A stretch of DNA of 50,214 bases, from assembly GCA_017455205.1 (NCBI GenBank), contig JAFTBM010000023.1, positions 1 to 50,214 of the forward strand, read 5' to 3'. The DNA comes from Bacteroidales bacterium (GTDB lineage Bacteria > Bacteroidota > Bacteroidia > Bacteroidales > P3). The notes below the pieces were generated by a model, which saw only the letters and a list, made by a program, of their open reading frames with translations, made no database searches and was not told the DNA's origin. Below are positions 992 to 42,136 of the stretch, piece after piece. Numbering within the stretch: position 1 is the stretch's first letter; each line of letters opens with the position of its first letter. The position numbers were made by a program, and so were the translations under genes.

Positions 992-1063
992 TACCCCCTG
1001 GGGGAATCGAACCCTCATCTAAAGTTTAGGAAACTTCCGTTCTATCCGTTGAACTAAGGAGGC
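992..1063 (-). tRNA. tRNA-Arg (anticodon CCU)
   Basis: The minus strand folds as a tRNA cloverleaf. The acceptor arm GCCTCCT pairs with AGGGGGT (with G-U wobbles), the D arm is GTTC/GAAC, and the anticodon loop is TTCCTAA with CCT at plus-strand 1028-1030. The T loop is TTCGATT. The discriminator base is A, and CCA is not encoded. The T stem has one A-C mismatch at its second pair. It decodes the rare AGG arginine codon. The IS element lies just beyond its terminator. Confidence 0.93.
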
Positions 1064-36545: not shown

Positions 36546-37649
36546 ATGGAAAACTTTGTAGTATCGGCTCGTAAATATCGTCCCTCCGACTTTGCTACGG
36601 TGGTGGGGCAGGGGCATATCACCCGAACACTGAAAAATGCCATAGCCACAGGGCAGTTGCCGCAGGCGTTTCTATTCTGTGGCCCCCGTGGTGTGGGCAA
36701 GACCACCTGTGCACGCATCCTTGCTAAGACCATCAATTGTGAGCACCGAACTGCCGACAACGAGGCGTGCAACGAGTGCGAGAACTGCCGAAGCTTCAAC
36801 GAAGGCTCGTCGATGAACATCTTCGAGCTTGATGCAGCCAGCAACAACTCGGTAGATGACATTCGGGAACTGACCAAGCAGGTCTACATTCCCCCACAGA
36901 CAGGCCGTTTCAAGGTCTACATCATCGATGAGGTGCACATGCTCAGCACGAGTGCATTCAACGCTTTCTTGAAGACGCTTGAAGAGCCGCCTGCCTATGC
37001 CAAGTTTATTCTTGCCACCACAGAGAAGAACAAAATCATGCCGACCATATTGAGCCGATGCCAAGTGTTCGACTTCAAGCGGATAGAAAATCGCGACATA
37101 GTGGCTTGGCTGCAGCACGTGGCGGAAAAGGAGGGTGTGAAATACGAGCAAAGTGCGTTGGAACTGATAGCCGTCAAGGCACAAGGAGGGATGCGTGATG
37201 CCCTTTCGATATTCGACCAGTTGGTCAATTTCACGCAGGGCAACTTGACGCGTGCGGGGGTGATGGAAAACCTGAATGTGCTGGATGAGGAATACTACTT
37301 CAAGATGATTGACTTCGCAAAGTCGGCCAACGTGGGGCAGGCTTTGTTGCTCTACCAGGATGTGGTGGCTCGGGGGTTCGGGGGGCAACATTTCCTCACT
37401 GGCCTTTGCGAGCATTTGCGCAACTTGCTTGTGAGTCTTGACCCTCAAACACTATCGCTGATTGATGGGAGCGACGACCTAAAGCAACGCTACGGCAGGC
37501 AAGCACAGCAATGTAGTTTGCCCTTATTGCTCGGATGGCTCAATATTGTGGGCGATTACGAGTATCGGTTTAAGGATGCCAACAACAAGAACCTTTTCGT
37601 GGAGATATGCCTGATGAAATTGGCCTCCACCACGCTGCCACAGACATAG
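36546..37649 (+). CDS. dnaX: DNA polymerase III clamp-loader subunit, gamma-like product of dnaX
   Basis: This 367-residue AAA+ clamp-loader subunit carries the whole ATPase and oligomerisation core. It has the Walker A loop GPRGVGKTTCARIL (about 46-59), a four-cysteine zinc module (CEHRTADNEACNECENC, about 64-83), DEVHMLS (about 126-132), the sensor LATTEKNKIMPTILSRC and domain III to about 365. It ends at TAG 37647-37649. The same reading frame continues for another 600 bases with the tau-specific tail, so the gene looks like a full dnaX with an amber codon at the domain III/IV border. The first product would equal the gamma form of other bacteria. Confidence 0.92.
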   Translation: MENFVVSARKYRPSDFATVVGQGHITRTLKNAIATGQLPQAFLFCGPRGVGKTTCARILAKTINCEHRTADNEACNECENCRSFNEGSSMNIFELDAASNNSVDDIRELTKQVYIPPQTGRFKVYIIDEVHMLSTSAFNAFLKTLEEPPAYAKFILATTEKNKIMPTILSRCQVFDFKRIENRDIVAWLQHVAEKEGVKYEQSALELIAVKAQGGMRDALSIFDQLVNFTQGNLTRAGVMENLNVLDEEYYFKMIDFAKSANVGQALLLYQDVVARGFGGQHFLTGLCEHLRNLLVSLDPQTLSLIDGSDDLKQRYGRQAQQCSLPLLLGWLNIVGDYEYRFKDANNKNLFVEICLMKLASTTLPQT

Positions 37650-38249
37650 ATTGCAAGAAGCCAGCAGGCGGACATAAAATCCCCAACTGATTCTGTGCCG
37701 AAACAAACGGCGGCGGATGCAGTTGGTGTTGCACCTGTGGCAAAATTGGATTCTGCACCCACACAAGCCACGACGGCTTCACCTGCAACTGGCGAACCTT
37801 TGCCGCGAAAAGTGGCTGCTTCGCGTCTGGCTGGTGCTATTTCTATTAACCTCAAGGATATTCCGCGAGTCGAGCCCCCAAAGGTGCAGGTCGAAGTAAA
37901 GCCTCTCACGCAGGCCGACCTCGAAAAATATTGGGAAGAGGCAGCCGCAGAGTTGAACTTGCAAGAACTGCTTAAAGATGGCAAGCCGAGCCTCGGCGAA
38001 CAGGTAGGCGTGGTTGTGATTGATGCACAAACCACCCATTTCCACGAGGATTTCCGTCCCCACAGCACAGCTGTCATGCAGTTGTTGCGCCAAAAGTCGG
38101 GCATGAAAATGCTTGAATGCAAGGTAAACCAGCTCTTTGTGGAACGCGATGCCAGGATATACTCGCCCGACAGCAAGTATGAGGCCATGCTTCAGACCAA
38201 CAGCAATTTGGCAACCTTGCGGCGACTGATGCCCGACATAGACTTCTGA
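37650..38249 (+). CDS. dnaX: tau-specific C-terminal part of dnaX, in frame after an amber codon
   Basis: This part continues the dnaX frame right after TAG. It encodes a Pro/Ala-rich linker (about 75 residues) and a C-terminal domain with PLTQADLEKYWEEAAAEL and RLMPDIDF, typical of Bacteroidota DnaX tails that bind the polymerase or helicase. No ATG lies near its start; GTG 37695 is the first alternative start codon of note. A stem CCAACTG/CAGTTGG (37683-37689 with 37720-37726) follows the TAG by 33 bases. It could be made by amber readthrough, by restart, or not at all if the TAG is a mutation or sequence error. TAG is an ordinary stop elsewhere in the window, for example after the genes ending at 27808 and 32898. 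Confidence 0.75.
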   Translation: MARSQQADIKSPTDSVPKQTAADAVGVAPVAKLDSAPTQATTASPATGEPLPRKVAASRLAGAISINLKDIPRVEPPKVQVEVKPLTQADLEKYWEEAAAELNLQELLKDGKPSLGEQVGVVVIDAQTTHFHEDFRPHSTAVMQLLRQKSGMKMLECKVNQLFVERDARIYSPDSKYEAMLQTNSNLATLRRLMPDIDF

Positions 38250-38257
38250 CCCACGGT

Positions 38258-42136
<3,879 letters not shown>

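Follow-up and report, generated by a model that had tools for sequence, protein, structure and literature searches.

In the dnaX gene of a Bacteroidales bacterium, an in-frame UAG separates the complete clamp-loader core from a tau-type tail encoded in the same frame, and our comparative analysis indicates that gamma is probably produced by ordinary termination at this codon and tau by programmed readthrough of it. The gene occupies positions 36546-38249 (+) of the contig that we analyzed at its full length of 50,214 nucleotides (the window), where it is flanked by folC upstream and by dapF (38258-39043, +; NCBIfam) as the next gene downstream. Translation confirmed what the first-pass annotation had read from the letters, namely a single frame running from the ATG at 36546 through 367 residues, TAG (37647-37649, +), 199 residues and a TGA, with no frame change at the border. 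The 367-residue core (36546-37646, +), comprising the AAA+ ATPase, lid and domain III, was identified as the clamp-loader core of DnaX (Pol III gamma/tau) by the Pfam models DNA_pol3_delta2 and DNAX_ATPase_lid and by NCBIfam TIGR02397, while the linker and C-terminal domain, with the TGA, span 37650-38249 (+). The NCBIfam gamma/tau model NF011531 (614 positions) matches the core over its positions 1-362 and the tail over 476-607 (E 5.3e-7 for the tail); neither match reaches the 685 bits set as cut-off for the whole protein, which half of it would not be expected to do. Since core and tail match one full-length gamma/tau model, the TAG stands between two halves of a known protein.

No Pfam family matches the 199-residue tail of the window at an E value of 0.1 or below. 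The tail's homology to the tail of uninterrupted relatives is established by the NF011531 match and by an hhalign comparison, in which a profile of the genus tails (42 of the 104 complete ones) matched a profile of uninterrupted Bacteroidota dnaX tails (30 of 62) at 99.6% with an E value of 2e-24. The median dN/dS over the last 105 codons is 0.051 (27 of 33 overlapping close pairs with finite dS, drawn from 104 of the 106 tails, the pairs sharing species), and substitutions at codon positions 1, 2 and 3 number 417, 183 and 1354, respectively. Judged by these substitution patterns, the tail is in use and under strong purifying selection. A conserved in-frame stop followed by selected coding sequence in the same frame is the arrangement expected of readthrough; in-frame continuation alone fits readthrough and other in-frame recoding alike.

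A search of 120 genomes of the genus gave a dnaX match in 113, 7 having none at E 1e-60, and one matching gene (G120) has no C-terminus; hence, the C-terminal region could be read in 112 genomes, of which 106 carry the in-frame TAG, six have the tail in the +1 frame and none is uninterrupted. A second, partial match in G053 (contig C15, residues 1-172) was kept outside these counts. In each of these 106, AT(T/A) comes directly after the TAG that closes the core frame, and the tail goes on in that frame. The class was assigned by a script rule (TAG, AT, not C), and the identical 106 loci are selected by at least 166 open codons past the first stop or, for L049 and L051, by a frame still open where the contig stops. 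Thus, the absence of ATC is not a product of the class rule; the four loci with TAG-ATC all belong to the +1 type. The same TAG arrangement is seen in three named public records from uncultured bacteria (L055-L057, including RUG13693 and RUG539, which we take to be rumen genomes). These are probably members of the genus set under their own names and, as duplicates of genus genomes in their flanks, were left out of the per-genome counts and retained among the 116 loci used for the hairpin and the 109 used for the sequence context. A second dnaX found in one genome (L201, G042:C222:6346-7396), with an uninterrupted open frame of 621 residues and 63% identity to that of the window, was also counted apart from the genus totals; it probably lies on a foreign contig, the genome having 5% contamination. 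Another genome, G067 (97% completeness and 1% contamination), gave no dnaX match at E 1e-60 or 1e-8, though the gene should be essential, and it may have been lost at a contig break or be very divergent.

A point mutation or sequence error had been named as the plain alternative in the first-pass annotation, and the surveyed genomes do lie in many contigs, with the public records coming from uncultured bacteria. However, relatives carry TAG rather than a sense codon at this position, and because it is conserved across 106 of 112 congeneric genomes together with a fixed 3' context, the TAG is neither a mutation nor a sequencing error. Given also the dN/dS of 0.05 beyond it, mutation, misassembly or gene decay retains next to no probability.

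The annotation of TAG as a normal stop, with no reassignment of the code, holds as well. Among 35 window ORFs of at least 150 residues (picked mechanically, with little overlap, some of which may not be genes), 13 end in TAG, dnaX included, and RF1 was found in 10 of 10 congeners tested. ARAGORN calls in two genomes (G000 and G106, one of them 93% complete) returned no stop-codon anticodon among loci holding 43 and 45 tRNA places; a Gln-CUG tRNA is present in both. As a side observation, a tRNA-Arg (CCU) at 992-1063 (-) of the window reads AGG, which is the slow codon in the +1 loci described below. Decoding of the UAG by a dedicated suppressor tRNA or as a special amino acid would recall SECIS-type insertion, in that a specific element follows the stop; yet with neither a CUA-anticodon tRNA nor loss of RF1 or of TAG as a common stop in these surveys, we consider it very improbable.

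The sequence 3' of the TAG consists of AT(T/A)-GCA-AG(A/G), a small potential hairpin and ACAYR. In the window these correspond to AUU GCA AGA at 37650-37658 (+; AUW GCN AGR by codon comparison), GCC-AGCA-GGC at 37660-37669 (+) and GGACAUA at 37670-37676 (+), whose ACAYR part is conserved. The isoleucine codon past the TAG is ATT or ATA in 106 of 106 loci, whereas ATC makes up 53% of isoleucine codons in the same genes; the alanine codon is GCA in 99 of 106 (18% of alanine codons overall), and the arginine codon is AGA or AGG in 105 of 106 (together 11% of arginine codons overall). Near-invariant columns of 58 congeneric cores served as control: ATC accounted for at least 53% at each of 10 isoleucine columns, GCA exceeded 19% at only one of 15 alanine columns (67%), and AGR reached at most 37% at 9 arginine columns. 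Moreover, a modal codon fraction of 0.93 was reached by none of 50 near-invariant four-fold columns of these cores. Since dS is 0.23 to more than 2 already among the closest pairs, shared recent descent does not explain the fixed codons. Further downstream, ACAU is kept at the RNA level despite a different codon phase: one subclade writes it as GCA-GAC-ATA, the other as GCG-GAA-CAT-A. The nucleotide context therefore exceeds what the protein constrains, as expected of a readthrough signal, and on this comparative evidence the element is an RNA-level signal, of which the primary sequence is the well-supported part. A pairing of AUU/AUA with CAC/CAU was considered and rejected: the two are correlated, yet they form no consistent pairs, and the correlation probably reflects shared ancestry. 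In a comparison of the element with 16S rRNA (a single 16S, from G106; six genomes searched), no perfectly complementary run of 7-9 bases was found.

A model of the element (R1), built from the subclade other than that of the window, had its best genome match at the dnaX site in 14 of 16 congeners, the others being a genome with no dnaX match (G007) and one of the +1 type (G011); a second match in G005 scored 19.9 bits. Over 393 genomes of the order, with two listed for the genus, the single match above 30 bits was in dnaX of G112, the window's own element scored 25.6 bits and the remaining matches scored at most 23.8. In genomes near the window the dnaX site receives no more than 20-26 bits, not far from the scores of background hits, so uniqueness of the element is well shown for the other subclade only. 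The hairpin part was also matched by a dispersed short repeat on many contigs of G372 (17 matches, about 18.8 bits), which is probably unrelated to the element.

The case for the hairpin is mixed. Immediately 3' of AGR, a G+C-rich stem is possible in 102 of 116 loci, compared with 13-44 of 113-116 at 14 other offsets (the score cut-off being our own choice), and its variants GCC/GGC, GUCC/GGGC, GCCCC/GGGGC and CGCC/GGCG follow the subclades; one locus (L198) is without it and the hairpins of two (L174, L199) are unlike the others. Its stability is no greater than that of shuffled sequences (mean z -0.27; 53 of 106 loci folded), only 60 of 106 loci give it a local pair probability above 0.5, and it is missing from the minimum-energy folds of the window at both 44 and 114 bases and from that of a +1 type stretch. 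Within-subclade pair counts barely beat shuffles, 95 and 22 of 500 shuffles being as good, so that covariation is thin. A small hairpin after AGR is less well supported than the primary sequence, though we regard it as likely. The stem-loop named in the first-pass annotation (37683-37689 with 37720-37726, +; CCAACTG/CAGTTGG) is present in the window sequence, but it lies outside the conserved element, and the conserved potential hairpin is a different one, nearer the TAG. A larger downstream structure was likewise considered: bases 40-117 past the TAG gave a mean z of -1.12, against -0.38 and -0.05 further down and -0.74 upstream (53 of 106 loci), a slight excess over neighboring stretches that is not convincing.

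The arrangement could also arise if the UAG ended gamma and ribosomes restarted at the AUU/AUA or at a later codon, releasing the tail as a free protein. Non-AUG starts exist (infC begins with AUU), AUU or AUA stands directly 3' of the UAG in all 106 loci, 52 of these have an ATG, GTG or TTG among the first 30 codons, and all but 6 of 104 linkers contain at least one of the three. Against this, an AUG is never found at the UAG, a usual start codon falls within 10 codons in only 1 of 106 loci, and 54 have none within 30. The GTGs (present within 30 codons in 44 of 106) occur at scattered positions; the one at 37695 (codon 16), suggested in the first-pass annotation as a restart site, is found at that codon in 1 of the 106 UAG-type loci, the window itself. 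The +1 congeners show UUA, CUA or AUA at the matching place, restart would leave the fixed wobble base of GCA and AGR without evident reason, and a tail unjoined to the core would lose its place in the clamp loader. Since no usual start codon is conserved, and since recoding that joins the tail to the core seems to be the rule in this family, judging by the +1 congeners and the sister genus, restart is unlikely. A second possibility is that ribosomes hop over the UAG in frame, in the manner of the phage T4 gene 60 bypass, rather than having it decoded by a tRNA. GGA, the T4 take-off codon, is the commonest codon ahead of the UAG (38 of 106), and some structure may follow; yet the codon at this position varies among 17 types, and a one-codon hop needs matching flanks, which we did not find in the 106 loci: ATT never precedes the UAG, and at the one locus where ATA does, the codon after the stop is ATT. 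PMC5009743 names stop hopping as something that might occur in place of readthrough, no case being known, and we judge it quite unlikely here.

Under readthrough, most ribosomes would terminate at the UAG and release gamma as the default product, whereas the 3' element (UAG-AUW-GCA-AGR, the small hairpin and ACAYR) may slow termination or hold the ribosome. We know of no readthrough signal that this element resembles. In a fraction of passages a near-cognate tRNA would then decode the UAG, yielding a gamma/tau mixture, and Gln-CUG would be a natural candidate for this tRNA (compare PMC5289835 for E. coli). The comparison across 106 of 112 genomes strongly supports the proposal of the first-pass annotation that a stop read through in part takes the place of the usual dnaX frameshift, even though the GTG restart, the stem-loop and the error alternative offered alongside it were not borne out.

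Outside the genus, we compared 84 loci from other families and the phylum (7, plus 77 taken from the top 80 among at least 594). The frame stays uninterrupted past residue 460 in 62 of them; another 2 reach the contig end, and 20 are short. The short loci comprise 14 with an A-run and the tail in -1, one with an A-run and the tail in +1, two with an A-run on contigs ending before the complete tail, one adapter-like artefact at a contig end and two (L029, L059) with NNY-AGG-C and the tail in +1; a core-frame tail was found in none of the 17 short outside loci with a visible tail. The artefact (L071, JADILW010000088.1) makes dnaX look truncated through a contig-end sequence that resembles a Nextera transposase adapter. 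The dnaX of L134, from a Flavobacteriales MAG, contains a long A-run; its tail lies in +1 instead of -1, as would fit transcriptional slippage. All three genomes examined from the sister genus g18 (G198, G302, G392) have an A-run, a zero-frame TAG soon after it and the tail in -1, a slippery border that the UAG loci do not show.

The six exceptional congeners (G011, G062, G123, G093, G060, G086) differ in how the core frame ends: each carries NNY-AGG-C, with GTT, GTC or CAT ahead of AGG, and has its tail in +1. After AGG follow C, NUA, GCU and AGA (AGG in G062); four of the six continue with UCGC and then AAGCGGAACAUA, and in G011 and G062 this part is varied with ACAUA kept. The UAG type reads UAG, AUA/AUU, GCA and AGR, followed in one subclade by UCGCC...GCGGAACAUA or similar. 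The slow codon, AGG or UAG, thus stands 10 or 9 bases ahead of the same downstream sequence. A tree was built from 81 core proteins, with L071 left out and L084 labeled -1 by its A-run despite a tail cut short by the contig end; in it the +1 congeners occupy four separate positions. The eight +1 rows, including L029 and L059, imply at least three label changes forced by well-supported branches, several of the forks concerned being poorly supported. This distribution would fit repeated switching and between-species exchange of the site alike. On our best reading of these alignments, UAG readthrough would be interchangeable in evolution with +1 frameshifting. Tentatively, we further suggest as a possible model that one 3' element acts on a slow A-site codon about 10 bases upstream, a UAG giving readthrough and AGG-C giving +1 frameshifting, and that species of the genus have switched between the two.

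The dnaX gene is a textbook case of bacterial recoding. Chromosomal bacterial genes that rely on programmed readthrough by ordinary tRNAs appear to be rare. We found no report of dnaX readthrough in the open-access literature searched, from which most subscription papers are absent; if true, it would be a further route to the two products of the gene. The routes named in PMC5009743 (section 21) are -1 frameshifting, transcriptional slippage and proteolysis, and PMC3711429 describes dnaX divided into two ORFs with recoding required for tau. In such A-run genes (PMC3711429, PMC5009743), gamma is likewise terminated in the frame of initiation and tau needs recoding, and the sister genus has this A-run form; the genus studied here has neither an A-run slippery site nor a frame change, and the stop would be read instead. 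The -1 frameshift of E. coli dnaX concerns the same gene, border and pair of products, except that gamma comes from frameshifting there and would come from ordinary termination here. Similar in form is gag-pol of Moloney murine leukaemia virus, which, according to PMC5009743, also has an in-frame UAG, a 3' stimulator and two products of one frame; its stimulator is a viral pseudoknot, whereas here a short motif and a tiny potential hairpin lie in a bacterial chromosomal gene, and we claim no shared sequence. The +1 type resembles Ty1 frameshifting, for which the same source gives a slow AGG and a GGC that overlaps it in the shifted frame; the six congeners and two other lineages combine NNY-AGG-C with a +1 tail. 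Of the latter, L029 (G025, family f2) and L059 have no A-run, a small hairpin being possible downstream, and are apparent cases of Ty1-like +1 frameshifting in bacterial dnaX. The difference from Ty1 is that the gene is a bacterial dnaX and that the AGG-C of the congeners sits above a 3' element like that following the UAG of the genus. For bacterial RF2 and eukaryotic antizyme, passages of PMC5009743 state that in no known organism has frameshifting been replaced by in-frame readthrough; such a replacement seems, from the arrangements compared here, to have happened in dnaX of this genus. With both forms coexisting in one genus above a similar element, interchangeability is directly testable on a cassette of about 40 bases, and, if true, a single bacterial recoding signal, placed in a gene essential for replication, would yield readthrough or frameshifting interchangeably.
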